Shown: piece by piece, positions 1,897-63,195 of the stretch
Layout: each line of letters starts with the position of its first letter
Position numbering within the stretch: the stretch's first letter is position 1
Source: Bryoerythrophyllum caledonicum
Lineage: Eukaryota; Streptophyta; Bryopsida; Pottiales; Pottiaceae
DNA length: 64,000 bases
Reading direction: 5' to 3'
NCBI GenBank assembly: GCA_963971425.1
Contig: OZ020518.1
Span: 6,179,989 to 6,243,988, forward strand
Translations under genes and position numbers: made by a program
Notes under the pieces: generated by a model
What the model was told of the DNA's origin: nothing
Databases searched by the model: none
Seen by the model: only the letters and a program-made list of their open reading frames with translations

Positions 1897-1900
1897 TTAA

Positions 1901-2615
1901 CCCCTAAGGTGCTGTGACAGTTTCACACCAAAAACATTTCAAAATAGTTGGATTCTAGTGCAATGAATAAAGAAGGAAACAAAAACTTTGATTTATATTT
2001 TTTGATCATATGATCTCAAATACAGCTTATTCAGAAACATACTCACAAAATTTCATAAACTTTGACCGCATGGATTGAAAGATTATAGTGTTTGAAGTCA
2101 AACAAGTGGTTCATTTTCTTCCCTGCGTTCAGTGGATCAGCTGACTTTGACTTCACTTGGTGTCAAATTTTTGCACTACATAAGGTCTGAATCAATTACC
2201 ATTGTGTTAAGCATGATGTTAGTTCCTTACACACCAATTTTTAGAGGTAGAGGAGGGGTGTAGCATATTCAAAACAATTGTGCAAGTAGTGGAGGTTCAA
2301 AAATTACCAATTCACATTTTAATTTTTTGTGAAATTAGTATGTTTTAGATTGATAATCCAAATGGTCAATAAAAATATTTACACTACACACTGTTGTGGA
2401 AAAATTAAAAGCCAAAATTATGAAGAACTCTAAGTTTTATGTGGAAAAGTAGAAGTTTTTTTGGTACCTTGCTTGACAATGTGTGAAAATGTTTGACTTG
2501 GGTTAATATGCTATTTTCCACTAAAGACAATAACCTTTTTTTTGACAATATGAAGGGAAAAAATATTACTTGCTAGTATTCAAAATCTCACATTCAATAG
2601 AGTGTCCTAGCAAAA
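1901..2615 (-). mobile_element. family B TTAA element, diverged copy (B13)
   Basis: The left end is TTAA (1897-1900) followed by CCCCTAAGG, then a body that matches the reverse complement of the copies at 24078 and 3542, including the stretch with TGCAAAAATTTG-like sequence and the block around 2250-2400. The far end is not recognised. A second fragment of a related subfamily follows at about 2615-2930 and matches 31040-31340. Non-coding and more decayed than the other copies. Confidence 0.6.
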
Positions 2616-2930
2616 GTTTTTGGAGGTGCCCAAAGTGCCCGCTCTCCCCATTTGAAATTCAAAACCTTATTGAACTTTGACCTCGTGGATTGTAGAACAC
2701 ATGCATTTGAAGGGTTTAACATGGTTGTTTTCTTCCCTTTGCGGACATGGTCATTGTACTCCAACTCTAAATAATAACATATTTTTCCACTATACATTGC
2801 ATGAATTTTATAGACCTATATCTACCTTGTGTTAGATAAATGCATGCCCAAAAACACAAGTAATGGAGGGATTAAGGAAAACGATCCTAGCAACAATAAT
2901 TAGGGATATATAATGCGGCCCTTTCCTTAC
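2615..2930 (-). mobile_element. fragment of a B-related subfamily (as at 30930)
   Basis: Shares with 31040-31340 the sequence running from a 'GACCxxxTGGATTGTA' block through 'ATGCATGCC' and 'ACAAGTAATGGAGG'. Neither end is complete here. The two copies show that a second, shorter body type uses the same ends as family B. Confidence 0.45.
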
Positions 2931-3541
2931 CATAATTTTAAATTTTAAATTTATATAGATAATAGCTGGATCTAAAGTATGTATGGTAAATGAAATCATC
3001 ATGCCATCCTATATTATGAAACAAATTTTGAAAAAATGAAATCTTTAATTTCTATACATATTTTAGGATTAACAATGAAGGTCTTCAAGAACTTTCCTTC
3101 ACAAGTGCCCACCTAAAAAAACTTACTGTTTCAGCTTTATATTATCCTATCCAACTGCCCTAGATTCCAGCATTTAATATTTGAAGCACCATATCGCTGA
3201 TTGCTGTCGAAAAAAGCCATGATGATAGCTTCCCCCAAGTAGAATTTGGGAGTTTAGGCAATGGCAAAAGGGTTGCTAAACACATTGGGTTTGAGAGAGA
3301 TTGACCATCTTAAAAACATTCTTTAATGCAACGGCTGAGCGTATTCTAAGTGTGAGCAATGCGAGGGGGTCCGCTTCTTAGTAACGTTTGCAGATTATTG
3401 AACTTTCTATGTTTATACCAAGTAAACATCGTGGGAATGAGAATTCTAACAAGAGGGTGAAATTGCACTTACCAAATGAATGCACTGTTATCCAATAGTT
3501 ATCAGGTTCTGTCATGTAATTTATATGAACTTCTTTCTTAA

Positions 3542-4467
3542 CCCCTAAAGGACCAGAGTCTCCTTCGGGGGGATTTATGATTTTGGGCAGGTTCCTAAAA
3601 TTCGAAAAAAAATCCTTTTTCTCTGAAATTTTTATTCTAGATTGCCTCTGATAAGAGCTTCGTGGACATATTTTTATTTTATTTTTTGGATATTTAATTT
3701 GAAAGTTAGTACCACTTAAAGCGAAAAGTGGGGACACCGGACACCTCCAAATTTTTTGACAAAAGTTTCTATTGACATTGAGATTTTTCACACATATAAA
3801 GAATATTTCCTTTTTTGGAAATTTTCAAAAAAAAATCTTGTCTTTAGTGTAAAAAGGCGTTTTACTCCAAGTCAAACATTTTCACACATTGTCGGGCAAC
3901 GGGGGGAAAAAACTTCATCTTTTCTACATAAAACCTAGAAATCTTCATATTTTTCACTTTTAATTTTTTCAACAACAATATGTGGTGAAAACCTTCTTAT
4001 TGACCGTTTGGATTATCATTAAAATACATACGTAGTTCACAAAAAAATAAAACGTGAAACGGCAATTTTTGAACCTCCACTCTTTGCACACTTGTTTTGA
4101 ATATGCTACACCCCTTTTTTACCTCTAAAAATTGGTGTGTTGGGAAATAACATCATGCTTAAGACAATGGTAAGAGATTTAGACCTTGTACAATGCAAAA
4201 ATTTGATACAAAGTGAAGTTAAAGTCTGCTGATGTACTCAACGCATGGAAGAAAATGAACCATTGTTTTGACTTTAAGCCCTAAAATCTATTAATCTGTG
4301 CGGTGGATTGCAACCAAAATTTCACGGCATGTTTATATAGAAGTCTATTTTAAGATCTTACGGTTGAAAATCCGAAATTCACTTTAAAATGTGATTTTCA
4401 TGTCTCTTTTTGGCAGTGGCAGTTTTGGACTGGTTTTAGAGCGAAAGTGGTCGTGGTTCTTTAGGGG
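3542..4467 (+). mobile_element. family B TTAA element, full-length copy (B1, 926 bp)
   Basis: Starts CCCCTAAAGGACC and ends GGTTCTTTAGGGG, a near-perfect 13-bp terminal inverted repeat. It is flanked by TTAA at 3538-3541 and TTAA at 4468-4471. Just inside the left end a second inverted block (TCCTTCGGGGG) can pair with the terminus, giving a subterminal hairpin. The body is about 90-95% alike by eye to the copies at 9317 (inverted) and 54623. No transposase is present, only an ORF of about 100 codons shared among copies by descent. TTAA target plus CCC start resembles piggyBac; a PIF/Harbinger-like element with 3-bp TAA/TTA targets is the alternative. Confidence 0.8.
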
Positions 4468-4487
4468 TTAAGGGCATCAAAGCAGTT

Positions 4488-4695
4488 TGAAAGTATTGCA
4501 GCAAGGTATCATAACATGTACCATAGCAAGGTATCATAGCAAGGTATCATAACATGTATCATAGCATGGTATCACATCATGGTATCACAATAGAGTATTG
4601 CAACAGGGTACTCTAGGTGGGTATATGAATCAGGTTATTGCAACCATCTACCTCACCATGATATTGCATCGAGGTATTACAACAGGGTATCACAT
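4488..4695. repeat. degenerate tandem repeat (GGTATCATAGCA-like)
   Basis: A roughly 12-bp phrase, variants of GGTATCATAGCA, GGTATCACAACA and GTATTGCAACAGG, runs for about 200 bp directly after the B1 element. No coding potential is seen. Confidence 0.75.
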
Positions 4696-4699
4696 CTAT

Positions 4700-5735
4700 C
4701 AGGATTGACGCATGGAGGTGTTTGTGTATGCGGTTTTCGATTAGAAACCACCTAGGTAGTTGTGGGTTTACCAGAAGGTGTAGAACTTAGCCCTAGTCAG
4801 TGATTAGGATTAGGGTTAGTGCCGTGTGACGGCTAGGTCGACAATGGTGTCTTTTGACACCTCATTTGGGACTTGGAGTCCAAATGACCTCATGTGTGTT
4901 TGAGAGAGACTCATATTTTTCAAGTTGAGTCTTCCACGTGATGAGGTGAGAATGTGTGCGTGTTGCACATCATTAGCTTTATTGATATCATGCTTTCACT
5001 CTTGAAGAGTGGCATGGACTCGACTTATTGTGGTTTTGATAGTGTTTTCAACTTATTTGTTACTTGAGAAAGATCATGTTGCGGCAATGCCGCAATGGGT
5101 GTAACCGCGACATTATAGTACATGTGATGTAGTTTTGAGGACCTACCTCAAAGTTCATGTTAGAACATTGGGTTTCTATGTTTTCAAACTAGAGGTGTCT
5201 GAAGTTCCATGGGAGCTTGGTCTCGATATGTGGCATAAGAGACAGTGTTGAAGTAGAACTTATTGAGGTCAACTACTGGAAGAGATTCGTAGGGGAGATA
5301 AGCGGCGGAGACTGTGTGAAGTGTGATTGGACGTAATCACTGGATAGCACGAGTTGGCATATTGACACAAGAATACATGCTCTGCACACATAAGTGCGGA
5401 TGGAGCCTCCGTTGGGCCCCAACCCGTGAGCGTAGGTTCTAGGGCTCAAGTTGGGCTTGACGAGCCGTGATGTGCTTGCCCCGACAAAACATGGGAGGAG
5501 GGTTGCGAACCATTTGTTTATCCCTTCAGATTCACCTCATGTGTTCCCAATGAGTTCCCATTGAGTTCCTATGTGTTCCCAATGAGTTCCATGTGCGTTC
5601 CTATCTTATTCCCATACTGTTCCCTTTGACTATTTGAATATGTTTGACAAAAAATTTACCACATTGTTCTCTCATAGAAATTTAGTAGAAGATCCTACAG
5701 CTACATTAGGGGACAGGAAAGGATGGGGACTGGGA
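4700..5735. other. intergenic, with a TTCCCAATGAG minisatellite
   Basis: No gene recognised. From about 5532 to 5627 a phrase of the type GTTCCCAATGAGTTCC is repeated five or six times in degenerate form. The rest shows no structure I can name. Confidence 0.5.
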
Positions 5736-9231: not shown

Positions 9232-9316
9232 TTAAGAAGGCTTAGGTGATGAATTGTCTTTTCTAATTTTTCCATTCAATATGCCAATCATTACTTCAAA
9301 TGTGTACATATTTTAA

Positions 9317-10251
9317 CCCCTAAAGGACCATGACCACTTTCGCTCTAAAACCAGTCCAAAACTGCCACTGCCAAAAAGAGACATGGAAATCACATTGTAA
9401 AGTGAATTTTGGATTTTCAACAATAATATCTTAAAATAGACTTCTATATAAACATGCCATAAAATTTTGGTTGCAATCCACCGCACGGATTGATAGATTT
9501 TTGTGTTTAAAGTCAAAACAATGGTTCATTTTCTTCCCTCCGTTGAGTAGATCAACAAACTTTGACTTCACTTTGTATCAAATTTTTGCATTGTACAAGG
9601 TCTAAATCTTTCACCATTGTCTTAAGCATGATGTTATTTCCCAACACACCAATTTTTAGAGGTAAAAAAGGGGTGTAGCATATTCAAAACAACTGTGCAA
9701 GGAGTTGAGGTTCAAAAATTGCCATTTCACGTTTTATTTTTTTGTGAACTACATATGTATTCAAATGATAATCCAAATGGTCAATAAGAAGTTTTTCACC
9801 ACATATTGTTGTTGAAAAAATAAAAAGTGAAACTTATAAAGATCTCTAGGTTTTATGTAGAAAAGATGAAGTTTTTTCCCCCCGTTGCCCGACAATGTGT
9901 GAAAATGTTTGACTTGGAATAAAATGCCTTTTTACACTAAAGACAAGAGTTTTTTTTGAAAATTTCCAAAAAAAGGAAATGTTCTTTATATGTGTGAAAA
10001 ATCTCAATGTCAATAGAAACTTTTGTCAAAATTTTGGAGGGTGCCCAGTGTCTCCCCACTTTTGGCTTTAAGTGGTACTAACTTTCAAACCACAAATCCA
10101 AAAAATAAAGTAAAAATATGTCCACGAAGCTCTTATCAGAGGAAATCTAGAATAAAAATTTCAGAGAAAAAGGATTTTTTTTCGAATTTTAGGAACCTGC
10201 CCAAAATCAGAAATCCCCCCCCCCCCAAGGAGACTCTGGTCCTTTTAGGGG
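9317..10251 (-). mobile_element. family B TTAA element, full-length copy (B2, 935 bp)
   Basis: Flanked by TTAA at 9313-9316 and 10252-10255. Ends CCCCTAAAGGACC and GGTCCTTTTAGGGG. It is the same element as at 3542 in inverted orientation, with very similar sequence along its length. A C-run of 14 (10215-10228) lies near the right end. It lies 81 bp beyond the right TTAA of the C2 element. Non-coding apart from the shared ORF of about 80 codons at 10023-10260. Confidence 0.8.
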
Positions 10252-10255
10252 TTAA

Positions 10256-23395: not shown

Positions 23396-24077
23396 TTCCA
23401 GATTTATTCAAAATTATGGCAACTTAGCATGGTATTTTGTTTGACATTTTATTCTCAACCTCTAATAATCTCCAGGAATACTTGGAGTGTAAGAAGTATG
23501 TTGCAACACGAGAATAATGAGAAAAATAATGGCACGGTCGCCCAGAGAGTGATTGTCAACACATGAAGAGCAGAAGCAGTGGCAATACACCTCCGGAGCA
23601 GCTTCAATATGAGCACCTCTCGAGGTTCCGCTTGGATCCTCGTGCAGGTGCGATATGGACGTGCATTCAGTCTTGCTGTCACTGTGTTTATTTTGTTATT
23701 ACACTGCAGTGATATTTCTTAGAAGAGGTGGTATTTTTGTCACGGCACAGCGACAGGAGGGTGATCAGTGTCCAATTCTCACGGCCAATAATTGTACTGT
23801 ACCTGCTCGTTGACGTGAGAAGTTTGCTCTAGACCCTTCATAATTTGCGCTGTTCATGGATGAAATCCTGGACGATACGGTAACTCACGAACCGAACGAG
23901 TCACGAGATAAAACGTAATTCGTGGTCTAAACCTTTGAGGAAAATTTGCACATTATCCAATAATTGATGTAACAGATTATAGTCGTTGAAGTCAACTTGT
24001 GTTTGTCGTGAAAATTATGGATTTGGAGGAGTGTATATTTATACCAATCAAGAGAAACTTTCAAAGAAATATTTTAA

Positions 24078-24982
24078 CCCCTAAAGGACCAAGTGTTCCT
24101 TTGGGGGGACAATTTTGATTCTGGGTAGGTTTCTAAAATTTAAGATTTTTTTTTTTTTTTTTTTTTTGGAATTTTACACTAGATTGTCCCTGATAAGAGC
24201 TTCATGGAGATTATTAAATTTGAATTCATGGTTTGAAAGTTAGTACCTATGAAAGTTAGAAATGGGGACTCCGGGCAACTCCAAAATTTTGCCAGAAGTT
24301 TCTATTGACATTGAGATTTCTCATACATGTTGAGAATATTACCTTCATTGAAGATGTCATAAAAATTTCTTGTCTTTAGTGTTAAAAAACATTTAACTTG
24401 AGTCAAACATTTTCACACATTTCAGGCAAGCGGGGAAAAAAATTCATCTTTTCTAAATAAAACCTAGAGTTCTTCATATTTTTCACATATTATTTTTTCA
24501 ACAACAATATATGGTGAGAACCTTCTTATTGACCGTTTGGATTATCAATCTAAAACATATTAAGGTCACCAAAAAAAAAAACAAGAACTAACAATATTTG
24601 AACCTCCACTTGTTTTGAATATGCTACACCCCTCCTCTACCTCTAAAAATTGGTGTACAGGGAACTAACATCATGCTTAACACAATGGTAAAAGATTTAG
24701 ACCTTGTGTAGTGCAAAAATTTGACAGCAAGTGAAGTCAAAGTCTGCTGATCCACTGAACACAGGGAGGAAAATGAACCATTTGCTTGACTTCAAACACT
24801 ATAATCTTTCAATCCGTGCGGTCAAAGTGTATGAAATTTGTGAGAATGTTACTTATCAAGTATTTATTGAGATCCTACGTTCAAAACTAAAAATATACGG
24901 TTTTGTTTCCTTCCTTACTCATTGCACCTTGATCAACAATTTTGAAGTGTTTTTTTGTGAAATTGTCACAGTCCTCTAGGGG
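24078..24982 (+). mobile_element. family B TTAA element (B3, 905 bp)
   Basis: TTAA (24074-24077) then CCCCTAAAGGACC; right end GTCCTCTAGGGG then TTAA (24983-24986). The subterminal hairpin (CCTTTGGGGG) is present. The right third differs from B1 and B2 and matches the diverged copy at 1901 and the fragment near 51890, so it belongs to a distinct subfamily. It includes a T-run of about 23 near 24150. A solitary related end (GATCCTTTAGGGG, TTAA) follows at 25125-25140. Confidence 0.8.
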
Positions 24983-25122
24983 TTAAGAAAGTGAAATCAT
25001 AGGATCTTCTTCAAGACATATGAGTTGACGTGGAACAATTTCTGGGATTTTTGACCATACGTATTTGAAAGGTAGTTGCAGTCAAAAGGAAAAAAATTGT
25101 CCCCCATACGGACCCCTAGTCT

Positions 25123-25140
25123 TGATCCTTTAGGGGTTAA
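25123..25140. mobile_element. solitary family B right end
   Basis: GATCCTTTAGGGG followed by TTAA, without a matching left end in the preceding 130 bp. Possibly the remains of another B element into or beside which B3 inserted. Confidence 0.45.
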
Positions 25141-25814
25141 AGTTGGCGTTTTCCAATATGTCGTAAGAGAACTTGGAAAACTCTGAATCTCAAGCCAAAG
25201 AAAATTTTCCTACAAGTTCAAAGGGAGTGTGCCTGTCACGCACCTTGAATATTTGAATATTACCTACAGTAGATGATAGTTTACTACTTTACATGGACTA
25301 AACGGAAAGATTCGATGACTTCTGGAATTATGTGCATGTCGTTTTGGAAAGGTGCTGCAAATTGGACTCCAGTTGAAAAGATACTATTAAACCAGCTCCA
25401 TAGCAGCTGCAACCTCCAGGTGCAATGCCGTGGCGGCTGACGCTCCATCCAAGACTGGACACACTTACAACAGTAGATCATCCGACGACGTGACTTCAAA
25501 ACGAGCGACTCGCCTCTGGACCACAATCAATTTTGCCAACGTCTTTCCTTGCTTTCCCTCACATCAGGGGTTGTGACCACCGTCACCGCAGAAGTCTAGT
25601 TGTAATATTGCACCTGTCGGACTGACAACTGGGGGGGGGGGCGAGGTTTCGTGATCAGTCTGGAATATATTAATATTGTGTGTGTTTTACTTGTAATTGT
25701 TAGAAAAGTGATATACGAGTTGCGTGTCCAGCTCATCGGCTGTACGGTGAGGGTCAACAACAGTTCTGTCGCAGTAGCGTATGAATCTGGAGCGTAGCGG
25801 CAGGCCGGCGAAAA
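25141..25814. promoter_or_regulatory. upstream region of the GT14 gene
   Basis: Lies between the last TTAA end and the GT14 start codon. It includes a G-run of 11 near 25630 and AT-rich DNA near 25670-25710. No convincing TATA box was fixed. The region must hold promoter and leader of the downstream gene by position only. Confidence 0.35.
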
Positions 25815-28486
25815 ATGAAGCTGTCGAGTTTGCCCGCCACCACTACCACCACGGCGCCGATGTCGTCGCCGCGATCCAGCATGGGGTCATTTCTCAAGAG
25901 CCAGGCGCTGGACGCATGGCTGGTGCGAGTGGCGGTCGGAGCGCTGCTGCTGGGCTCCGTGTTCCTCTTGAGGCTCCTGCTGGACTCGCAGCCGGGCCTC
26001 ATCCCTGCCGATCTTCGACTAGGCGTTCTGTCTAGTACTAGCAACTCCTCAGCTTACACTGGGTGCAGCAATCCCAGAGATGCGAACCCAGCTAGATTCC
26101 CACCTTCGATTCTCCGGAATGCCTTTCTCCCTTGCAAGGACTACGTCCAGCCCGGCGTCAGCACCTATGAGCTCCACAATTTGTCTAGGTTTTTCCACAC
26201 TGAGGTGGAGGATTCCGAGCTCCTGCACGCGGCGCAGGACGTAGCCACTCGGCCTCTGCCGCCGGGGAAGCCCCGGGTGGCGTTTCTGTACATTACGAGG
26301 GAGCGCGTCGCGCACGAGGCGCTGTGGGAGCGCTTCTTTGCGGGCGTGGATCCGGAGCTGTACTCGATCTACACTCATAACAGCTCCGTGGTGGAGGGGG
26401 AGTACAACGAGACGTCGGTGTTTTACAAGCGGGGTATCCCCACCAAGAAGACGTGGAGGTTCACCATCACCTTGGTGGATGTTTTCCGGAGGCTCATGGC
26501 GTTCGCTTTGTTGGACGTTGCGAAGGCGAATATGTGGTTTGTGCTCTTGTCTGAGACCTGTGTCCCGGTGCGGAGCTTTCCTTATGTCTATGGCTACTTG
26601 ATGAACTCCACCACCAGCTTTGTGGAAGGCTTTTCTCCTCAAGAAAGGTACTAGATTTTTCTCCTCCGGCAAAACTTCTCAGATGCAAATTCTGGAGTCT
26701 AGATGCAGCAGGGCATGTTTGATTCATTACAAATTGGGAGTGCAAAAACTGCCATTATAGCAAACATAGCCTTGAATATGCTGCAATTTTACGTTTTTTT
26801 TTTTTTTGGTTGGTTTGAATTATTTTGATTTTATTTGAATTATGCAGGTTTTTGAAATACGAGAAATGGGAGCCTGTGGTAATGAAAAAGGACGTGCGGA
26901 AGGGGGAGCTGTGGATGTCAATGCACCGGCGCCATGCTGGGATGGTTGTTGGCGATGTAACACTCTACAGAAAGTTTAAGTTGGATTGTCACACTGAGTG
27001 TGTCAAGGATGAGATGTATGCGCAAACTCTTCTCCACGTGAAGGACCCTCAGGTATGGATCCATAATGCCTTCATTTAGACTTAGGCACCTGAATTAATG
27101 GATGGTTGAAGAAGGTCACCGTTTCATTTACCCCTAAAGGACCAAGTGTCTCTTTGGGGGACTTTTTGAATGCAATTATCTTTCAATCCGTAAGGTCAAA
27201 ATTCACAAATTTTATACCACATCATCTCATACATGTTTAGATATAGATCCTACGGTTAGATTTACCTTGGTAGTTTTAAATCAATGAAGTAGGGATTCCC
27301 CTAAAATGCCTTGGTCCTTCAGGGGTTAAATTTAGGGAGAGCTTGTGATGACACTGGAGGGATATTTCCATGGCCATCGTGCAAATCATGTCATGTTGTG
27401 GACCCCGCTCGATGTTGTAGAGGCTATGTCAACTCCCTTAAAGGTCTTGCAAGTGGTGCTGGATGCCATGCTGCCGAGGGAAAGTTGGTGTCATGGACTT
27501 GTCACCTTTCCTTGTCATGCACGTTCCTTGCTAGCCTTTTTTGACTAAATTTGCATGTCTTTGTATTTTGACTGAAATCAGAATTCCACATCCTGCCCCT
27601 CAATCATACTTGCCCGACCTGCTCCCTTCGGATCTTAGAGTCTGTTGCACGCAGTCTCTGAGCAAAGGAACTTCCCAGAAGCATTAGGCTGCTTGTTGGT
27701 GGATTGTTTCTGAGGTCACCCACTTTGAGACTTAGTACTAATACAGTATACTGTCAATTAGAGATATCTGCAAAGTTGCTGTGAGAGAGGTTCCAAACTT
27801 GTCCTGTCTACTTGTTTTGAGCCTTTGCAAAAGAGGGCAAGCCAAGTTGACAAAATTGACACATTTTTAGAGTAAGAAGCCTAAACCTTTATCAGCAGTG
27901 CCAGCTTGATTAGGCATTAATGATATTAGCTCGTCCTTGAATTCCATGGTAGCTTTGATAATCACTAAAGACATCTACGGTAGCTTCAATGATCCCTAAA
28001 GACATCTATGGTTGCTTTGATGATCTCTAAAGACATCTACGGTAGCTTTGATGATTCCTACAGTGTAAGATCTCCTGCATGTGTGCAACTCACAACCAAA
28101 CTTCCAATTCTCACCACCTACCTTTTAACCTTTTAAGGATATTTGTACTAATTTTTAATGATGTCTGCTTCCGGATGAATGTGCAGGGGGTAGCCAACCG
28201 GTCAATTACGTATGTGGATTGGCACTATAATCACAGAGGATCTCCGAGGCTTCACACTGCTCAGTTGATAAATGCCACTCTGGTTAAGAAGATACAAAAC
28301 AGGACTGAGAATCTGGATGGGCAGTACTGGGACTCCACGGATGAGTGGGACCACAAACTATTCCGAGACTGCGAGTACAACGGACGACCGCACTCACCTT
28401 GCTTTTTGTTTGCAAGGAAGTTTTCAGTGATTAAGGAGGATGTCCAAGCCTTGCTTAACATTCCAAAGACTGTTTTGGGCTACTAA
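25815..28486 (+). CDS. GT14 family (DUF266, core-2/I-branching-like) glycosyltransferase
   Basis: Three exons by splice consensus: 25815-26647, 26848-27052, 28187-28486, giving about 445 residues. A basic N-terminus and one hydrophobic segment (about residues 36-52, VRVAVGALLLGSVFLLRLLL) make it a type II Golgi membrane protein. Family blocks in order: RVAFLYITR, LWERFF, YSIYTHN, SVFYKRGIPTKK, DVFRRLMAFALLD, FVLLSETCVPV, FVEGF; exon 2 has MSMHRRHAGMVV and HTECVKDEMY; exon 3 has ANRSITYVDW and ending FARKFSV..LLNIP. These are the marks of the plant DUF266 clade (related to rice BC10), thought to transfer sugars during wall polysaccharide or arabinogalactan-protein glycosylation; substrate not predictable here. 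Intron 2 (1.1 kb) holds a family B element. An upstream start is not seen; ATG at 25860 is a weaker alternative. Confidence 0.88.
27131..27325 (+). mobile_element. 195-bp family B derivative in GT14 intron 2 (B5)
   Basis: CCCCTAAAGGACC at the left, GGTCCTTCAGGGG at the right, followed by TTAA (27326-27329); the left flank reads TTTA. The subterminal hairpin (CTCTTTGGGGG) is kept. The interior is a short version that matches the copy at about 47783-47985. A MITE produced by deletion of the longer form. It lies wholly inside the intron. Confidence 0.75.
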
Positions 28487-33130: not shown

Positions 33131-33534
33131 AATGAATGTTCTGAGCCCAAGATTCAATGGGGGAACATTCCAGCATATTACTCAATTCCAGTGAATTGCA
33201 AATTAGTAGCATCCTTGAGGACTACACTAAAGATGGCTGCTAGTGTAGTGGACACTAAATACAAACCCATACACTAATTGTAAAGTTTACAATTAGTGTA
33301 GTGACAAAACTATACACTAAATGTCAACTACTACACTAAATGTCAATTCTAGTAAATATGGAACATAAGGTTTTTTACTTGTGGACATTTAGTGTATGAA
33401 ACCTAGAAAATGATTATGTGTACATTTTGAGCATCAAAATAAAGAAGATTTTGAGTGCATGTAGAAAAACAAGAATTTGCAAGAGAAAAATTGGAAAAAA
33501 TAGAACGTAGATATGGAACAAAAGGAAAATCCCC

Positions 33535-34610
33535 AAAATTGACACCCTTCCAAGGATTGAAAGAATTTTTTTGCCCATGTAATTTTTAGCATGAGACGAC
33601 CTCTGTGTTAATTATATGTGTGAAAAATTTCAAGTCTAAAAGATCCACACAATTAAAACTACATCAAAAGCTAGCAACATGTGTAGTTGTGAGAAACATT
33701 TCACTCCTAGCCGACTTTGACACACTCCCAAGGATTGGATTTTTTGGTATTTTCCCATGAAATTTTTGACATGAGACTACCTCTGTGTTGATCACATGCG
33801 TGCCAAATTTGAAGGCCAAAATATCTACATATCAAAAGATTTTTGAAATCTACCAACATGTATAGTTGTGAGAAACATTTCACTGCTGCCAACTTTGACA
33901 CCCTCCTAAGGATTCAATTTTTTATTTTTTCCCATGATATTCTGGACATAAGACCATATCTATGTTGGTTATACATGTGCTTAATTTCAAGTCCAAAAGA
34001 CCCACAATAGAAAAGAAACAAATCTTAATCTACAAACATGTGTAGTTGTGAGAAACAATCAGAGAAACCATTTCACTATTGTCAACTTTGGCACCCTCCC
34101 TAGGTCGGAAAAATTGTTAATTGACCATGAAATTTTTGGCACAAGATCACCTTCATGTTGATAACATGTGTGCCAAAATTCAAGGCCAAAAGATGAATAC
34201 AAAAAATCATCTTCAAAATCTACCAAAATATGTAGCTATGAGAAACAATTTTGAATATCCTTTTTTCTATTCATCATGTGGCCTTGGAATTTGGCACACT
34301 TATTATCAACATGGAGGTGGTCTTGTGCCAAAAATTTCATGGTCAATTAACAATTTTTCCGAGGGCAAAAAAAATTCTTTAAATCCTTGGGAGGGTGTCA
34401 AAGTTGGTTAGTTGTGAATGGCTCACAACTACACATCTTGGTAGATTTTAAATATCTTTTTTTGTATTTATCTTCTGGCCTTGAAATTTGGCACACATGT
34501 TGTCAACATAAAGGTGATCTTGTGCCAAAAATTTCATGGTAAATTGACAAATTTTCAGCCTTCAGGAGGGTGCCAAAGTTGGCAGTAGTGTAGTGTGGAA
34601 ACGTACAAAA
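33535..34610. repeat. foldback array of about 180-bp units (E1)
   Basis: Four direct units, each marked by ACTTTGACACxCTCC at about 33540, 33712, 33893 and 34086, are followed by two inverted units marked GGGAGGGTGTCAAAGTTGG at about 34378 and 34566. The turn lies near 34225-34260. Other shared blocks are ACATGTGTAGTTGTGAGAAA and AAAATTTCATGG. It is the same unit as the element at 41461-42785. Confidence 0.8.
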
Positions 34611-35846: not shown

Positions 35847-36702
35847 CCCTTTAACCCCTAAAGTTCCTTGACAATTTCCCTCAAAAACTATAAGTGGTAC
35901 TAACTTTCAAACCACAAATCCAAAAAATAAAATAAAAATATGTCCATGAAGCTCTTATCAAAGGCAATCTAGCTTTAAAATTTCAGAGAAAATTGATTTT
36001 TTTTCGAATTTTAGGAACCTGCCCAAAAATCAAGGAATCCCCCCGAAGGAGACTCTGGTCCTTTAGGGATTAAGGCCTACAAGCTCACGAGGCCTTGGAG
36101 AATCTATGAGTGTAATAGATCATGCATAATAATAGGTACACATCATTGCAATCTCATTTCACAAAAAACCCTGTAATGCGCCAATGCCTACATCGATTTT
36201 GATGGCACCTGTCCCAGTAGATGCTCATCTTGCTCCGCCGCTAAATTTTCCTCATTTTTTCCCTCAAAAATGACATGTAATGCTTGCTACTGCGGTTGAC
36301 GTGCCCAAACGACCCAAAAATAGATGTTAGGCCTTAAATGGAAGGTTCATATCCAGTCTTACAAGAATGCATATTTACATGTAATGCATCACTCAATAAT
36401 GAACAGTCTCTTTAAGCCACTTGTACGTGGCATTATTTAGAATGAGCAACAATTGCGGATCCAATTCTCCATTTATCCTTAAACGTCTGTAGGGGAACCG
36501 TATATACATGACCGTATTCTACTCTACATAATATAGAAAATATATTAAAGTTTAGCAAGACTTACACCTATGGATTGAAGAATCTTCATCTAACATCTTT
36601 GATTTGGGAGTCATTTCAATATCTGATCATTATCATGTTCAAATATGACACCGTACATGTAGAATACGGTGGCCACCAACGGCACCTTCTGACGTTTAAG
36701 GG
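35847..36702 (+). mobile_element. family C element carrying a B insertion (C1)
   Basis: TTAA (35843-35846), CCCT, then TTAA at which B8 is inserted, then GGCCTACAAGCTCACGAGG. The body matches C2 and C3 (GGAGAATCTATGAGTGTAAT). The right end ACGTTTAAGGG is followed by TTAA (36703-36706). Without B8 and its duplicated TTAA it is about 637 bp. A TCCTTAAACGTC block at 36476-36487 mirrors the right terminus, so the last 226 bp may be a separate A-type MITE. It ends less than 200 bp upstream of the lipoxygenase first exon. Confidence 0.65.
35855..36069 (-). mobile_element. 215-bp family B derivative inside C1 (B8)
   Basis: CCCCTAAAG at the left, GGTCCTTTAGGGA at the right, TTAA on both sides (35851-35854, 36070-36073). 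The sequence corresponds to the two ends of the long form B2 with the middle deleted. It is inserted in the second TTAA of the C1 terminus. Confidence 0.75.
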
Positions 36703-37188: not shown

Positions 37189-40100
37189 ATGGCCACGGTC
37201 ACAGCTGAATCTGCAGCTTCCGCAATGAAGGAGGACTTCTTCCTCAGATATTCTCCGAGGGACCTGCACATGCTGTTCTCCGGCGGCGAGATCACTACCG
37301 CCAAGCCCAAGCCGGACCCCATTCCGGCCCCCATTCAGGAGACGGTCCACATGGTGGTGAAGTCCGTCTCCCAGGCAGGCACGGTGCTCACCAACCTCTT
37401 CGGAGAGACGGCCAGTGTGCTCGCAGCAAAGCAGCAAGACGTGGTTGATCCCGGGCTGGTGTGCCTCAAGGCCTCGGTGTCCATCGAGAAGCAGAACGTC
37501 GGCGGCATCGACCTCGCCAACCCCGTCTCCGACATCCTGGAGCTTCAGCAGGAGCTCATCAACAACCACGTCACCTTGCAACTCGTCAGCAACGAGGTCG
37601 ACCCTCGTAAGTCCTCACCATGACCAACGTAAAGGAAATAATCAACCACTTTCTAGAGTTTACTGAAGTGTATTTCCCCGGTTAACTATATGCAGAAACT
37701 GGGTCGGGGAAACTGAGTGGCAAGGTGACGTTCGAGCAGTGGGCGAAAGCCAGGGACCTTCTGATACCTACAGTGTTTGACTTCAACATGGGCTTTTACG
37801 TGCCCAAGAACTTCGGCGTCCCGGGGGCCATCCTTGTGCACAACGGGCACCAGAACCTCGAGCTCGTCCTGGGCAGCAAAATCACCATTACCACGGAGTT
37901 CAAGCTCGTGAGCGCCCAGGTCACCATGCCCGACCAGAACGTCGTTCGATTCCTCTGCAACTCATGGGTGTACGCGTCAGAAACGAGCCAGGACGGCCGC
38001 ATATTCTTTGCCATCAAAGTAACATTACCACCTCTAGTTCATACAAAAATTAATTCTGGATACAGAAGAAACAGGTTTACCAAATCCTCTGTGTGTTGGT
38101 TCATTCATCAAATCATCAAGCTTAAGAGTTCTACATATCATTCTCATGGTGCATTGTTTGATCAGGAATGCACCCCTGCTGCCACTCCGCCCGGCTTGCT
38201 GAAACTGAGGCAAAGTGAGCTGCAGGAGCTTCGGGGAGATGGAACGGGAGAGAGACAAGAAGGCGACAGAGTGTACGACTACGACGTCTACAATGACTTG
38301 GGCAAGCCTGACGATGCCAGACCCACCCTCGGTGGGTCAGCAGAGTACCCATATCCACGGCGGTGCCGCACTGGCAGAGCTCTAAACCCAGGTAGTTACT
38401 ACAGAAAACACATGTTCATTGCATCATCTCCACCACTTTGCCTTGAAAGTAATAAGCAATGTCATCTCTATGCATTATTCAGATGGGAAAACGGAGACCA
38501 GACTGAGTGGCGCTTTGGCGAACCTGTACATCCCGAGGGATGAGAGGTTTGATGTGGTGAAGAGAGCAGGCTTCATCGCTAACAGCCTCAAGGCCAAGAA
38601 GCACAACATCGCGTCCGCCATGTTTGACGACGGGCTGGACTTCCACGACTTCGATGAGCTGAGGGCGCTGTATGTGCCCATCGGAGAGGAATCCGTGGTG
38701 GAGACCATCGTTAGTAACCAACGGCAGCCGTTCGAGCTCATTCGCCAGTTCGTGAAAGCCTCTGGAGACACCAAAAACGACTCGCTCATGTACCCAACGC
38801 CAAGAATCATCCATGGTACTAAAAATGCTGCCGCATTCACATTTGCTCCTGCACAACATATGCAACCTTTCACAACTGCCGTCTTCAGCATTTGATAAGC
38901 TGATATTCATGGTCTCTCATGCAAACTCTTTCTTCGACCTACTTTCACTCGAGTTTAGACACCACCAAGCTCTTCCATACTTAATTGAAGGATTCTAATT
39001 GAAAGACCACCTCGAAAGATCTACTAACTATTTTGATAAATTGTGAGCGACAGCTGATAAGGATGCTTGGTCCAAAGACGTCGAGTTTGCACGCCAGGTG
39101 TTGGCTGGGATGAATCCCTTGGTCATTGAAGCACTCCAGGTACTCTCACCACTTGCAAATTCACTTACATTTCCAACTAGCAACGAGTTTGCTTGCAATC
39201 AACCCTCAAGAATCAAGTGCTGTTCGCTGCTCTGATAAACAGGAGTTCCCACTCAAGAGGACTTCTGCCGTCACTGCAGAAATGATATTGCCTCATCTTG
39301 AAGGCCTCACCATTTCCGAGGTGAGCAGGAAAATGAAGTGAATATTCACATATACTGGTCATTTCTGCTATGATGATAATGAATGAATATCTCCGACACT
39401 AAAAGCAGAAGACGCGATATAATATGTAAGTCAGATTACGGATTTGTTTTGAGAGGGGTGTTGCTTACCTGATCGAGTAGGCCTTGTTGAAGAAGAAGTT
39501 GTTCGTGCTGGACTACCACGACCGGTTCCTGGGCTACATCAAGCGCATCAACGAGCTGAAATCCAGCCAAGCGTACGCATCCTGGACGCTCTTCGTCCAC
39601 TCTAAGGACGGCTCCTTAAAGCCTGTGTGCATCGAGCTGGCTCTTCCGGGAGCCAAAGCCGGCGACCGACCCAAGCTCCGCGTGTTCCGTCCCTCGGAGA
39701 AAGACGTAGCCCGGAACTGGGCGTGGGAGCTAGCCAAAGCCCACGTCCAGTGCAACGACGCGTCCTGGCACCAAGTCATTAGCCACTGGTAATAAGCACC
39801 TGCGTACAATGCAAACAAAAAAAATTCTCAAACACATATCCTTTAAACCCTGCTTCACACACATCCTTCAGATCTTGCTTCACCCACATTCTTCAGATCC
39901 TGCTTCACCCACATGATACATTGGGCCAATGAATGCAGGATGCGGACGCACGCTGTGATCGAGCCTTTCGTGATTGCCACCAACAGACAGCTGAGTGTCA
40001 TGCACCCGGTGCACAGAGCGCTTGCCCCGCACTTCAAGAACACCATGGACATCAACCAGACGGCTCGCAAGGCGCTCATCAACGCCGGCGGCATCGTGGA

Positions 40101-41100
40101 GCAGACCTTCACTCCGCAGAAGTACACCATGGAAATCTCTTCCAAGGTGTACGCCGGGTGGCGCTTCGTAGACCAAGCGCTCCCAAACGACCTCATCAAA
40201 AGGTAAAATCGACAAAATCCACAGACGATGTTAAGGTTGAAGGGTTTACCTGATGAGGAGCTTCGTCATGCGCAGAGGGATGGCGGTGCCGGATCTTGGA
40301 GCTCCATACGGGTTGAGGCTCGTGATCGAGGACTACCCGTACGCAAAGGACGGGCTAGATCTGTGGGCGGCGATCCGGGCATGGGCGAAGGAGCACCTGG
40401 ACGTGTTCTACGCGGACGACGAGGCGGTGCGCGGCGACGCCGAGGTGCAGGCGTGGTGGGCGGAGGCGCGTGCTCGGGGCCACGCCGACGTGCGCGAGGG
40501 GTGGATCATGGCGGACTCCAAGGAGAATCTGGTGCAGATCGTGACCACCATTGCGTGGGTGGCGTCGTGCCACCACGCCGCGGTGAACTTCGGCCAGTAC
40601 CTGTACGCCGGGTTCATGCCCAACCACCCCTCCATGACGCGCAAGCTCATCCCCGAGGAGAACACCCCCGACTGGGACGCCATGCAGCGCAACCCTGAGG
40701 CCTTCCTCCTCTCCACGCTCTCGAACGCGGTGCAGGCCCGGGTCAACATGACCACCATCGAAATTCTCTCCACGCACGCCGCCAACGAGGAGTATCTGGG
40801 CCAGCGACACGAGCACTGGACCGACAACCCGAAGGTGATCCCGGTGCTCTCCTTGAAACTCTATCAACCATGTGCAACTTCCAAATTACAGTCCTAACGT
40901 GGACTTTCTTGCAGGTGCTGGCGGCGTTTGCCAAGTTCGCGAAGAAGGTCGACGAGATCGACGCGCTCATCAAATCTCGGAACGCAGATCCGTCGCTAAA
41001 GCATCGGAATGGGCCGACCAAGGTGCCGTATGAGCTCATGCGGCCCAAATCCGGCGATGGACTCACCAACAAGGGCATCCCCAACAGCGTCTCTATCTAG
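37189..41100 (+). CDS. LOX: plant-type lipoxygenase
   Basis: Oxygenates polyunsaturated fatty acids to hydroperoxides (oxylipin pathway). Coding exons by splice consensus: 37117-37606, 37696-38018, 38166-38391, 38483-38815, 39054-39139, 39243-39320, 39481-39788, 39939-40202, 40276-40834, 40915-41100; an earlier exon ends at 36992. From ATG 37189 the product is 926 residues, near the usual plant size. An in-frame ATG at 36861 would add 68 residues; I prefer 37189 because a TATA-like box lies at 36843. Domains: PLAT/LH2 beta-barrel ([33 protein letters not shown]), then the catalytic helical domain ([29 protein letters not shown]). All iron ligands are present: the two His of SHWMRTHAV, His and Asn of HAAVNFGQY, and the C-terminal Ile of GIPNSVSI. 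The LINA block keeps the Ala typical of S-specific enzymes. 9- versus 13-specificity cannot be read safely. Exons are GC-rich. Confidence 0.92.
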
Positions 41101-41460: not shown

Positions 41461-42785
41461 CAGTCCCCTTCAATAAAGATACGTACTTTTAGCATTCCTA
41501 GGTATAGTAACTTTCAGTGCTGCCAACTTTGACACCCTCTTGAGGTTTAAAAAATTGTTATTTTACCATGAAATTTTCGGCACAAGATCACTTCTATGTT
41601 GATAACATGTGTGCCAAATTTCAAGGCCAGAAGATAAATATAGAAAAGGATATTCCAAATTTACCAACATGTGTAGTTGTAAGCCATTCACTACTGCCAA
41701 TTTTGACACCCCCCCCCCCAAGGGCTCAAAATTTGATATTTTACCATGAAAGTTTTATCACAAGATCATGTCTATGCTGATAACATGTTTGTTAAATTTC
41801 AAAGCCATGTGATGAATACAATAATAGATACACAAGATTGTTTCTCATAGTTCCACATGTTGGTAGATTTTGAATATGAGTTTTTCTATTCATCTTCTCG
41901 CCTTGAAATTTGGCACGCATATTATGTTCATAGAGGTGATCATGTGCTAAAAATTTCATAGTAAAATAACAAATTTCCTAACCTAGGGAAGGTGCCAAAG
42001 TTGAAATGGTACCCTTGGATGTTTCTCACAATTAGCACGTTGGTAGATTTTGATTTTTTTTCTTTATTATCGTGGATATTTAGGACTTGAAATTAAGCAT
42101 GCATATAATCAACATAGAGATGGTTTCATGCCCAAAATCTCATGGGAAAAAACATAAAACTCAATCCATGGGAGGGTGTCAAATTTGGCAAGAGTGAAAT
42201 GTTTCTCACAACTACACATGTTGGTAGATTTCAAAAATCTTTTGCTATATAGGTATTCTGGCCTTAAAACTTGGCACACATGTATTCGATATAGAAATGG
42301 TTTCATGCCAAAAATTTCATGCGCAAAAACAAAAGATTTAATCCTTGGGAGTGTGTCAAAGTTGGCTAGGAGTGAAATGTTTCTTACAACTACACTCACA
42401 ACTACACATGTTGCTAGATTTTAAATATGTCTCTTTGTGTGGATGTTTTAGACTTTAAACATGTAATAAACATAGAGACGGCCCAACGCCAAAAATTACA
42501 TGGGCAAAAACAAAAAATTCAATCCTTGGGAGGGTGTCAAAGTTCGTAGCTATAAAACTTTTCTTAGTGCTACCCATGTTGGTAGATCTTGAATATCTTT
42601 TTTTCTATTCGACTTCCGACCTTGAAATTTTGCACACATGTTGTCAACATAGAAATGATCTTGTGCCAAAAATTTCATGGTAAAATTACAATTACTAACC
42701 CTCGAGATGGTGTCAAAGTTGGTAGCACTGAAAATTACTTTCCCAAGGAATGCAAAAAAGTACGTATCTTTACTGAAGGGGACTG
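41461..42785. mobile_element. foldback element with about 180-bp subrepeats (E2, 1325 bp)
   Basis: Ends CAGTCCCCTTCA and TGAAGGGGACTG, flanked by TA on both sides (41459-41460, 42786-42787). The inverted ends continue for about 80 bp. Inside, two direct units (ACTTTGACACC at about 41520 and 41695) face five inverted units (at about 41990, 42172, 42352, 42531 and 42711), so each arm is a small satellite array. TA target and CAGT start fit a Tc1/mariner-derived foldback element. It separates the convergent lipoxygenase and transporter genes. No coding sequence. Confidence 0.8.
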
Positions 42786-42894: not shown

Positions 42895-45440
42895 TTAAGG
42901 TTCATGTCGTGATGAGCTCTCCAGATGCTCATTCTTCGCAGAGAGGTTATCAACAGGACCAACGGCAGCGCTCTGGAGTTGGTGGTCAGATGAGCTCATG
43001 GACTTGTGATTGGGGTATTTCTTGTACCGGTAGGAATGGGCGACGATGAGAAAGTAGACGACGTCGAGGAAGCTGAGGACGGCCATGAGCCAGTAGAAGA
43101 GGTTGAGCTTCTTGCGGTTGAAGGGAAGGCGGTCGGAGAGCCACCCGGGGTGAGACGCGGTGCTGGTGGCCTTGTTGACAATGTTGACGACGGCGGTGCT
43201 GATGAAGTAGCCGAGCGAAATCGTGCTGAAGGACAGGCCCGTGCTGGTGCTGCGCATGCTGTCGGGCGCCTGGTCGTAGAAGAACTCCAGCACGCCAATG
43301 TACGTGAACATGTCGGCTATGCCGAACGTGAAGTACTGCGGCACGAGCCAGAAGATGCTCATGGGGATGGTGGCGCGGGGGTCGTCCAGGAGGCCGTGGG
43401 CGCGCGCCGTCGCGGTACGCTTCACCTCCACCATTGCGGCGATGACCATAGACACCACCGAGAGCACCAGCCCGATGCCGATGCGCTGCAGGAACGTGAT
43501 GCCGCGGTCCAGGCCCGTGAAGCGGCGCGCGTAGGGCACGAAGCAGCGGTCGTAGAACGGCACCAGCACGGCCATGATGACGAGCGGGAAGAAGGGGATG
43601 GACGCCGCGGGGAACTCGAAGCTGCCCACGCTGCGCTCCACGGTCGCGCCCTGCTCGATCGTGAACGTCTGCAGTTGCGCCAGCACCACGTTCATCGCAA
43701 TCGTTCCCGCCCAGATCGGCACCAGCTTCACGATCGCCTTCGTCTCCTCTACCTGCGTCACGGTGCACAGCTCCCACTTGCTGCTCGCGCCCGAGTCCGC
43801 CTCGGATCCCGGCACTATCGCCGCCCTATCCAGAAACCTGCACACGTCAAACTCACTCAGTCTCAACATTCACAGACAAAGTCAGATGCGCTCCGCCTCG
43901 CACACAAATTGAACTTCCTCAATCACGTGCTCCAGGCACCAGATACAACACCTGAAGTAGTTTGTGTGGTCGATTCTCTGGAACCCCAGCTGCGCAGCCT
44001 CTTTGTCGTCCATCTCAAACAAGAAATCCGGAGATGGCGGCACGGGGCTGTGCATTTTGCGTACCGCGGCGACGAACACTTGCAGAATCCTAGTTGGGGG
44101 GCTGCCCGAGGGAAGGCGCCTGCGGTAGCGGCGTGTGCCGGCCAGGAAGACGACGAGCCCGGCCGCGACGAGCGCGAGGCAGACACCATAGCCCACAGCA
44201 TAGCCGACGTTGTCCTGGATGTAGACCAGCACGGTGACGCCCAGCAAGCCGCCCGCCACGAAGCTGAAAAAGAACCAGTTGAAGTAGACCGAGGAGAGGC
44301 GGCGCTCCCTGACGTGCGTCTCGTCGAACTGGTCGGCGCCGAGGCTCGACAGGCAGGGCTTGAGTCCTCCCGAGCCAAGAGCAACGAGGTACAGCCCCAC
44401 GAACAGCACCGCCAGGTCGGGCGCCGTTGCTGGTGTGCACGGCGGAGCCGCGCAGTGCGGCGGTTGCAGCGACGGAATCGCAGCAGAAATCGTCATCAGC
44501 GACATGCCCTGAAGCCAAGCTGCTCGTTAAGGATCTGTAGTCGGGAGAAGAACCGAGTAATTTACTCGAGATGGAGTTTTCACGTACCACGATTTCGACG
44601 ACTGCGAAGATGATGATGGTAGCGAATCGACCCAGATACGCGTCGGCCAGAAAGCCTCCCAAAAGCGGGCACAGAAACGCCGTCCCCGCGAAGTTCGTCA
44701 CCGTAGTGGCCGCTTCCGTGGTGGCGATATTCAGGTGGTTTATGAGGTATAGCACCAGGTCGATCTGCAGACCTATGAATGCCATCGTCTCTGCAAACTC
44801 GAAAACTGCCCCAATCCATGGAGTTAGTGCACTGACGCAGTTCATGCACGCAAACCTTGACTGTGGACTACATTTCGAAATGAGTTCATGGCTCATGACG
44901 ATACAGAAGATTTCGCCAGGAGGACTATGAACTGGTACGTGCGTAAAGCATTGATGATTCAATGGAATTGAAGTGTGAGGTATGCACACAAATTAACGGA
45001 AGACTGTGATGACAGAGGCGACAGTTTACAGAAGTTGAACGGTGAGCTTCGCCATCCTCCCGTTTTGAGTCTGTTGGCGCGTCGCCCTTTGTAATCAACC
45101 GACCCGTCCCCAACAAGCACCGATTCCGCACCTTCCTCCTGCAATTGGAACAAGGGTACCAACGTCACGAACCACGCAACATCACAAAAATTGGCGACCT
45201 CCAATTGTGAAACCGCACACAAGGTGCGATAAATTTTCAATACATGCAATTCCAGTACTCTCAAACGCAACCAATGCTTACCATGATCTCTCACAAATGA
45301 GTTCCGAGAGATCAGAGTCCGCAAATCCAAGCTAGTAATTCATGGACTCATCAGAGGGTCAAGCCGACCTCTTTTCACACGCCTAGAAAGCGTGATCTGA
45401 AAAACTAGCCTGGTGTGATAAAGATATTCGTAGTTACCAT
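42895..45440 (-). CDS. NPF (NRT1/PTR) proton-coupled nitrate/peptide transporter family protein
   Basis: Five exons on the minus strand: ATG at 45440-45438, then 45138-45030, 44805-44588, 44508-43952, 43837-42895; all phases agree and give 609 residues, the usual NPF size. The start codon is the last codon of its exon, followed at once by a GT donor. Family marks: GSVDYKGRRAN and TGGW at the N-terminus, LLGGFLADAYLGRF, ALGSGGLKPCLSSLGADQFDE, LCTVTQVEETKAIVKLVPIW, SIFWLVPQYFTFGIADMF and SMRSTSTGLSFS, with about twelve hydrophobic segments and a central cytoplasmic loop. The family moves nitrate, peptides, hormones or glucosinolates across membranes. The proton-coupling motif ExxE(R/K) in helix 1 reads EFAET, so the basic residue is replaced by Thr. 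Substrate cannot be inferred. Confidence 0.9.
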
Positions 45441-53193: not shown

Positions 53194-53258
53194 GCACTAG
53201 AATCAACAAACACTAAATACATAGTCTACCTGGCCTTTATAGCTTCCTTAACCCTTAA

Positions 53259-54065
53259 CCTCTAAAGGACCAAGACATTTTCCCCTCAAAATCACTCCAA
53301 AACTGCCATTTTCAGCGCATTCAACACGAAATGATACAAAATATTTTTTCTGAAAATTTAACCGTAGGATCTTGTACCAGAGTTGTTGAAAGTGTGTGGT
53401 GAAAATCTTGGTAAGTTTGACCGCACAGATTGAAAGATATCGGCCTTTGAAGTGAGACATAATCTCTTTTTGAGGTCATACTAAACACCTTCAACAAACA
53501 TCGACCACCTTCTATGGCAACTTTTGTAATATGGGCCGTGAATTTATTATGTTAACTTGAAAAGGATCATGTTAGGCACATGTGCAACAAATTTTAGAAG
53601 TAGAAGAGGTGTAGAAGATGTCCTAAAAATTCCTGCAATGCAACTATGTGCTGAGAATCAACAATACACTTTATATTTTGCATATATCATATCCTTCTCA
53701 AATTTTTGAAAATCACAAATCCGTATGGTAGATGCAAAGATCTCAATTTCCTTTCCAATAAGACATTTTGTTTCTTTTAAATGGACAAAAACTCGAATTT
53801 CTATTGAATTTAGAAGTTATTAGAGTTTAGTGACAGTATTTGTGATATGTCACACTAAACTGCTGCACTATTTGTATATGTAAGTGAAAATAAATTGTAA
53901 CTTTTGAACCATAAGTCGGAATTCTACGAAAATTTGCGTTTACGCAAAGCTAATCAAAAGTTGTCCATTCAATTAAAAATCTCAGAAAATAATGCCTAGA
54001 ATTGAGAACGTGGTACTTTACCCAAACTCAAAATGTCCCCTGAGGGGACTTTGGTCCTTTAGGGG
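53259..54065 (-). mobile_element. family B element inside the A3 terminus (B10, 807 bp)
   Basis: CCTCTAAAGGACC at the left and GGTCCTTTAGGGG at the right. TTAA at 53255-53258 and 54066-54069, which is the TTAA inside the A terminal repeat CCCTTAAACG. The subterminal hairpin is present (TCCCCTGAGGGGA). The middle differs from B1, so it is a separate subfamily. Confidence 0.8.
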
Positions 54066-54622
54066 TTAAACGATGGAGCCTATGACCGTGGCATCAATCT
54101 AAATTTTCAATCAATTGTATGCTGTAGTTTCTCATCAAATATAAGTGGAATTAAATTTATTTTTTTCAAAGATGAGATCATATGTCTCAATTATGTTACA
54201 AAAATCACATTTTTTTTTGGTGGAAATTTGAATTTATTGTGACTTTCTGAAGAAAAAGTGAAGAAAATTCATATTAAATACAAATTATGCTAAAAAATTC
54301 TGAAAATTTCACCAAAGGTGGACATTATAGTGCCAAAACTTGTGGTGTAAATGAAAGTTCCGTGTTCGGCTAAAATTAGAACCATGGTTATAGGTCCAAG
54401 TTCAAATTGTAATAACTTATTCAATTTATGTATTTTTTTAATTTTCAAAATGGTATGGAAACTAGACGTCATTGGCTTCATTTCATTAGTTGGACTCAAA
54501 TTCAAAAAATATCATTTTGATGGCTTGAATTCAGATCTAGAGATAAAGCTAGAAGTTTCTCAATTTCAATGTATTGAGATCCGTGTCACAAGCATTCTCT
54601 TTCTTAAATAAAACATGATTAC

Positions 54623-55543
54623 CCCCTAAAGGACCAAGTCTCCTTTGGGGGCATTTCTGATTTTGGGCAGGTTCCTAAAATTCGAAAAAAAATCCTTTTT
54701 CTTTGAAATTTTTATTCTAGATTGCCTTTGATAAGAGCTTTGTGGAGATGTTTTTATTTTATTTTTTGGATTTGTGGTTTGAAAGTTAGTACCACTTAAA
54801 GCCAAAAGTGGGGACTCCGGGCACCTCCATATTTTTTGACAAAAGTTTCTATTGACATTGAGATTTTTCACACATATAAAGAATATTTTCTTCTTTGGAA
54901 ATTTTCAATTTTTTTTTTCTCTATAGTGTGAAAAGGCATTTTATTCCAAGTCAAACATTTTCACACATTGTCCGGCAACGGGGAAAAAAATTCATCTTTT
55001 CTACATAAAATCTAGAGATCTTCATATTTTTCACTTTTTATTTTTTCAACAACAATATGTGGTGAAAACCTTCTTATTGACCGTTTGGATTATCATTCAA
55101 ATACATACGTAGTTCACAAAAAAATAAAATGTGAAATGACAATTTTTGAACCTCCACTCCTTGCACACTTGTTTTGAATATGCTACACCCCTTTTTTACC
55201 TCCAAAAATTGGTGTGTTGAGAAATAACATCATGCTTAAGACAATGGTAAAAGATTTAAACCTTGTAAAATGAAAAAAATTGATACAAAGTGAAGTCAAA
55301 ATCTGCTGATCTACTCAACGCAGGGAAGAAAATGAACCATTGTTTTGACTTTAAACACTAAAATCTATCAATCCGTGCGGTGGATTGCAACCAAAATCTA
55401 TGGCATATTTATGTAGAATTCTATTTTAAGATCTTATGGTTGAAAATCCGAAATTCACTTCAAAATGTAATTTTCATGTCTCTTTTTGGCAATGGTAGTT
55501 TTGGACTGGTTTTAGAGCGAAAGTGGCCGTGGTCCTTTAGGGG
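54623..55543 (+). mobile_element. family B element inside A3 (B11, 921 bp)
   Basis: Ends CCCCTAAAGGACC and GGTCCTTTAGGGG, perfect 13-bp repeat. TTAC on both sides (54619-54622, 55544-55547). Very similar to B1 over its length and in the same orientation. The unoccupied site is seen in A2 at 30168-30190 (ATGATTATCTCAATGAGG). Confidence 0.85.
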
Positions 55544-55701
55544 TTACCTCAATGAGGCCAGTTTCATCATCATCTAATGCTTGTACATTCAAGGAACTCT
55601 CCTCAAAAAGAGAGGATGAAAAACAGTTGCTTACGTTGATTATCATCCAACAATGTCATCCGAGAAGCCAATTTCTGGCTGCTTCGGCGTTTAAGGGTTA
55701 A

Positions 55702-62914: not shown

Positions 62915-63140
62915 AGACGGGGAGAATGGAGCCATTGGAAAGTCCCCATTTATCACTTTGAGTGGTACTAACTTTCAAACCACAAATCCAAAAATAATAA
63001 AAATACCTCCAAATGGCTCTAACTAGAGACAACATAGTATAAAAGTTTCCAAAACCAAGGATTTTTTTTCTTCAAATTTTAGGATCCTATCCAAAATCGA
63101 AAACACCCCCCCCTCAAAAAGAGATTTGGTACTTTAGGAG
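62915..63140 (-). mobile_element. family B short derivative (B12)
   Basis: GAGTGGTACTAACTTTCAAA and CACAAATCCAAAAA blocks and the right end TTTGGTACTTTAGGAG followed by TTAA (63141-63144) match the right part of inverted B copies (10060-10251). The left boundary near 62915 is uncertain. Confidence 0.6.
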
Positions 63141-63195
63141 TTAAGCTATTCATAAATAAATTACTTTGATCAACATTACAACTAACCTACTATAC

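Follow-up and report, generated by a model that had tools for sequence, protein, structure and literature searches.

The window, the whole 64,000-nucleotide stretch of moss DNA analysed here, contains five long copies of elements bounded by a 13-bp terminal inverted repeat (TIR) with a CCY-type start (CCCC), CCCCTAAAGGACC. The first, a putative non-autonomous piggyBac-type element on the forward strand (3538..4471, 934 bp including both TTAA), has its left-type end at 3538 and its right-type end at 4471. An inverted copy of its subfamily lies on the reverse strand (9313..10255, 93% identity to the first), with TTAA at both sides and one additional A within the left-type TIR, and a third copy (54619..55547, forward strand) is flanked by TTAC direct repeats, i.e. 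by a non-TTAA target duplication, its boundary reading TTAC/CCCC...GGGG/TTAC. Mutual identity within this subfamily is 91-93%. Two more forward-strand copies have TTAA at both sides: a member of a related subfamily (24074..24986) and an 815-bp element with the same TIR and a mostly different interior (53255..54069). These flanks agree with the initial annotation, which had listed four copies between TTAA sites and one between TTAC sites. Its treatment of the five copies as a single family does not hold, as they are not homogeneous: the 24074 copy is about 79% identical to the 3538 subfamily, and the 53255 copy has just 50-55 bp in common with the other long copies. All five copies are present as described, but the 13-bp ends that they were said to share are exact at both sides only in the 54619 copy, each of the other four departing from the 13-mer at one end, by 1-2 mismatches or by a single inserted base.

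Shorter and incomplete members also occur. They comprise a 223-bp member with TTAA at both sides (35851..36073, forward strand), a probable 203-bp member (27127..27329, forward strand; left 13-bp end exact and flanked by TTTA, right end with one mismatch and flanked by TTAA), a truncated member that retains only its 1897 end (1897..2678, reverse strand; 85% identical to element L043 212-1155), a lone end with TTAA (CCCCTAAAGGATC, 25124..25140, reverse strand) and a family-homologous fragment with no strand assigned (62940..63144). Allowing up to three mismatches, CCCCTAAAGGACC has 38 matches in the window, 8 of them exact, against a mean of 11.06 (sd 3.56, maximum 19) in 100 shuffles. Nine of the 13 ends within one mismatch of the 13-mer are preceded by TTAA. 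Two of the remaining four are preceded by TTTA and TAAA, and the final two, preceded by TTAC and GTAA, form the two sides of the TTAC copy. Similarity to a 12-element set covers 6250 of the 64,000 bases.

The window had been described as lacking a transposase, and this stands: by eye, none of its 26 stop-to-stop frames of at least 150 aa resembles a piggyBac transposase, and a Pfam scan of 10 of these 26 frames gave no match to PF13843. Scans of the window for tRNAs and Rfam families were empty. Its Pfam gene pieces correspond to a Core-2/I-branching enzyme (25785-26651), a lipoxygenase (37686-40894) and a POT-family transporter (42898-43869). Two blocks (33533-34601 and 41512-42733) are repeated in opposite orientations and also resemble L053 1-1071, and degenerate CAAGGTATCATAACATG-like short repeats adjoin the first copy (4490-4700). 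A second piggyBac-type end, TTAACCCTTAAACG, is found at 11005 (forward), 36706 (reverse) and 55701 (reverse), and resembles ends at the transposase loci L017 and L033/L035.

Genome-wide ends and target duplication

The window belongs to a 437-Mb assembly of 894 contigs, which was the genome searched. Its LEAFY gene has D and C at the two specificity residues that mark the moss type, which suggests a moss; SAM_LFY gave one strong LEAFY match and six weaker ones, spread over several contigs (E 5.5e-8 to 3.9e-4). The 14-bp end CCCCTAAAGGACCA has 6476 exact occurrences in the genome, compared with 2 for the backward-read control pattern, and TTAACCCCTAAAGGACC has 5910, compared with 0 for its control. 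TTAA directly precedes 5530 of the 6476 exact CCCCTAAAGGACCA ends (85.4%), bearing out a TTAA consensus across the genome; the 946 ends without a preceding TTAA count against the interpretation preferred below.

A tally of flanks covered the window and the transposase regions (46 regions, 282,592 bases), excluding the regions chosen for their TTAA end (L001-L008 and L043-L045) and four duplicates. Among its 25 ends within one mismatch of the 13-mer, which include some ends of transposase-bearing elements, 19 are preceded by TTAA and one each by TTTA, TAAA, TTAC, GTAA, CTAA and TGGA. When ends were paired mechanically (n = 17), the adjoining 4-mers were equal in 11 cases (7 TTAA, 1 TTAC and 3 CTAC/GTAG, the latter all within a single internal segment of L050-L052) and unequal in six, one of which is window 9317-10250, offset by a one-base insertion.

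TTAA is palindromic, so its presence on both sides could in principle belong to the inverted repeat. The TTAC repeat of the 54619 copy is direct, and therefore marks a true 4-bp target duplication rather than a TIR extended by a palindrome. TTAA is moreover kept at two empty sites. In L045, a copy of the window subfamily (640-1571, 90.7% identical to window 3538-4471) is nested in a related element, and its joined flanks with one TTAA align gap-free at the junction to an uninterrupted TTAA-bearing sequence. In L042, a transposase element is nested in an element core, with TTAA kept and three bases missing just outside it. Elsewhere, L040 lacks an element that is present at L039 7182-8549, the flanks being 83% and 80% identical; the aligned site is ACAA with a TTAA three bases off, an empty place being visible and its exact target unclear. 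The duplication is thus of 4 bp, and the 3-bp TTA/TAA duplication of PIF/Harbinger type was not found. Two different transposase-bearing elements (L039 3107 and L042 2409) apparently sit at the same TTAA within short-element cores.

piggyBac transposases and the elements that encode them

The initial annotation had proposed a search of the same genome for a piggyBac-type DDD transposase, and such genes are indeed abundant: PF13843 has at least 120 matches, all above the cut-off (best E 6.2e-81), a lower bound because 116 of 305 candidates were scored. As four genes are each split in two pieces, these matches correspond to about 116 transposase places. A sample of 32 domains, made up of the 30 with the highest scores together with L051 and L053, falls into 17 clusters at 80% identity, whose representatives are 35-80% identical. 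Strict catalytic-motif patterns hit 21, 14 and 28 of the 32 domains, all three together in 11. The uninterrupted L051 ORF (474 codons), for which PF13843 is the sole Pfam match, matches Trichoplusia ni piggyBac (6x67, E 6.3e-26) and piggyBat (9c0f, E 2.5e-23), and its D140, D225 and D341 align with the three catalytic aspartates of 6x67. Its tail is Cys/His-rich by eye, domain models giving no match there. A 268-aa frame upstream of this ORF has no Pfam match, and IMG/VR, scanned with the L051 transposase as query, yielded no relative. L040 also has an uninterrupted transposase frame, of 1059 codons.

Eight transposase places were followed to both ends. Five different complete elements of 5.4-8.6 kb encode PF13843 between TTAA-flanked CCCCTMA ends. 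One of them is present in three copies (L050 3003-8551, L051 1458-7006 and L052 2942-8532; ends CCCCTAAAGGCCC and CCCCTAAAAGCCC), whose homology is bounded by TTAA on either side, with different flanks beyond; over 5551 bp, L050 matches L051 at 99.86% identity. The others are L053 3064-8456 (5393 bp, CCCCTCAAGGCCC at both ends), L040 619-8175 (7557 bp, CCCCTAAAAGCCC at both ends), L042 2409-8963 (6555 bp, ends CCCCTAAAGTTCC and CCCCTAAAAGACA) and F8 (C14:9635891-9644449, 8559 bp, ends CCCCTAAACGACC and CCCCTAACTAACC), two copies of which are 97.6% identical between TTAA boundaries, with a third sharing the left boundary only. Two further families (L017/L022 and L033/L035) have a one-sided TTAACCCTTAAA end. 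A 91-bp tandem repeat, seen as BLAST offsets, lies at L050 7784-8059 and at the equivalent positions of L051 and L052, its copy number apparently differing in L052.

A transposase between matching ends had also been proposed as a point to check. The five TTAA-flanked elements have ends of the same kind, but CCCCTAAAGGACC was not found in exact form at both ends of any transposase-bearing element among the eight places read end to end, their ends differing from the 13-bp TIR at 1-3 of 13 bases.

No second end was found in regions L039 and L041; L019, L039, L041 and L042 contain 200 N each. In the approximately 1.5-kb flanks of the 30 loci L009-L038, the only paired ends were those of L030 (5 mismatches in 20), all other loci having one-sided ends or none, and the L030 pair was rejected as an element because homology to L040 continues past its second end. 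Exact ends lying 6.5 kb apart in L043 (C1) were likewise rejected as a single element, because each is the outer end of a different short element, and no transposase was found between them among frames of at least 90 aa inspected by eye or by BLAST against the transposase loci. One transposase-bearing family harbours the core of a short element, lacking both terminal repeats and about 93% similar to L043 212-1155, at L042 6193-7051 and also in L011-L015.

Relationship of the short elements to their transposase-bearing relatives

Five short elements, three of them located in the window, were used for a comparison beyond the TIR: at each of their ends, the 200 bases following TTAA and the 13-bp repeat were compared with 11 ends of transposase-bearing elements, using 100 shuffles as a control. 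All ten short-element ends score above the best of the 100 shuffles. Their best partners are L040 ends (6 of 10), L042 ends (3 of 10, one tied with F8) and the L039 left end (1 of 10), which was grouped with the L040 right end owing to their similarity. Within each short element the ends match different types, one the left end and the other the right end of L040/L042, which suggests that the short elements are relatives of L040/L042-like elements with a deleted or replaced interior. Identity between L044 and an L040 end is 74% over 258 bp (E 1.75e-38).

The piggyBac resemblance noted in the initial annotation is supported by the TTAA consensus, by the 4-bp duplication and by the PF13843 elements with the same kind of end. 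Together with the subterminal homology, these results point to the short elements being non-autonomous piggyBac-type transposons. The copies are very probably MITE-like members of the superfamily, presumably cut and pasted in trans at TTAA by the DDD transposases of their relatives. The short elements, which encode no transposase, retain the 13-bp inverted repeat and distinct left and right subterminal sequences, and may have arisen when L040/L042-like elements lost or exchanged their interior. piggyBac-type DDD transposases from the 5-9 kb relatives would excise them in trans, and the excised element would then insert at TTAA and duplicate this target, a path that we infer from established piggyBac chemistry (catalytic D268/D346/D447, TTAA hairpins, seamless excision and a requirement for asymmetric ends, as given in the available text of PMC7351741). 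Such transposition may be recent or continuing, and the full-length transposase-encoding relatives were probably mobile recently.

MITEs of the Tourist and Stowaway types are widespread in plants, and a 3-bp TTA/TAA duplication of PIF/Harbinger elements, or a 2-bp TA duplication of Tc1/mariner elements, might mimic TTAA. The Tourist duplication is TAA/TTA (PMC10004981, in the part available), as against the 4 bp seen at the empty sites, where a 3-bp duplication had been considered as the alternative, and against the TTAC/TTAC copy; with PF13843 encoded by the elements read, which bear the same kind of end, we regard such an origin as extremely unlikely. Another possibility is that a different TTAA-duplicating superfamily made the short elements and that their sharing of ends with piggyBac is due to chance. 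Kolobok, Sola3 and Phantom-type MULE elements likewise use TTAA, and the lack of an exact 13-bp end at both sides of a transposase-bearing element would suit this explanation, which is nevertheless very unlikely in view of the shared CCCC start and of homology that reaches beyond the TIR into piggyBac element ends, as between L044 and L040.

A third alternative concerns whether the short elements are still being moved. They could be dead relics of piggyBac type, the transposase families being separate lineages that no longer mobilise them, and the 7-9% divergence of the window copies within their subfamily fits this, as does the L050-L052 family, the youngest transposase family among those read, which is the best match for none of the ten ends. 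On the other side stand the thousands of exact ends that remain and the uninterrupted transposase frames of L040 and L051. We find relic status quite possible, if not the reading that we favour, and retain mobilisation in trans as the preferred interpretation.

piggyBac in plants

The superfamily itself is already known, most fully from animals and also in plants, since reviews state that it occurs there (PMC10140906, PMC8086355 and PMC10813416, in the parts available); what is new here is a strong member in an under-reported host. Like T. ni piggyBac (IFP2), the elements have a TTAA target, a CCC start, a short TIR, unlike left and right ends and a DDD transposase; the L051 tail, Cys/His-rich by eye, may correspond to the C-terminal stretch of this kind in the T. 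ni enzyme. They differ from it in that the transposase match is distant (E 6.3e-26) and in their size of 5.4-8.6 kb, the T. ni element being 2472 bp with a 14-bp TIR (PMC10140906, available text). mPok1 and mPok2 of Daphnia Pokey are comparable as short derivatives alongside putatively autonomous relatives (PMC4912750, accessible portion), whereas here the host is a plant and exact ends number in the thousands.

Among plants, a table of the C-fern genome lists PiggyBac with 1230 copies and 0.00% (PMC6890710), and PiggyBac is named among angiosperm MITE superfamilies (PMC10004981). In the portions of these sources available, the annotations share name and superfamily with our elements and present no transposase-bearing elements or empty sites, both of which are present here. 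In open-licence literature, none of the matches listed describes piggyBac elements from a moss. The listing for a Sphagnum genome paper has no occurrence of the term (PMC9946827), and the match in another moss genome paper (PMC10619864) was to 'piggybacking'. According to a 2017 paper, T. ni piggyBac was at that time still untried in Physcomitrella (PMC5505980, available section).

We see the chances as even that in this land plant piggyBac forms a major DNA-transposon system, diversified over a long time and still mobile, which moves a large load of MITEs in trans; this reading draws on the 17 clusters among 32 domains (to about 35% identity) and on the 99.86% identical copy pair. piggyBac is a widely used tool, and its land-plant record is thin in the literature reviewed. 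With its diverse and probably recently mobile elements and its short derivatives in the thousands, this moss may serve as a system for asking how plants tolerate and silence piggyBac, and whether piggyBac reached plants by vertical descent or by transfer. It also raises the question of whether a plant-native TTAA transposase could be used for seamless excision. If the reading of piggyBac as a major mobile system is true, the genome would be a native plant source of piggyBac transposases.
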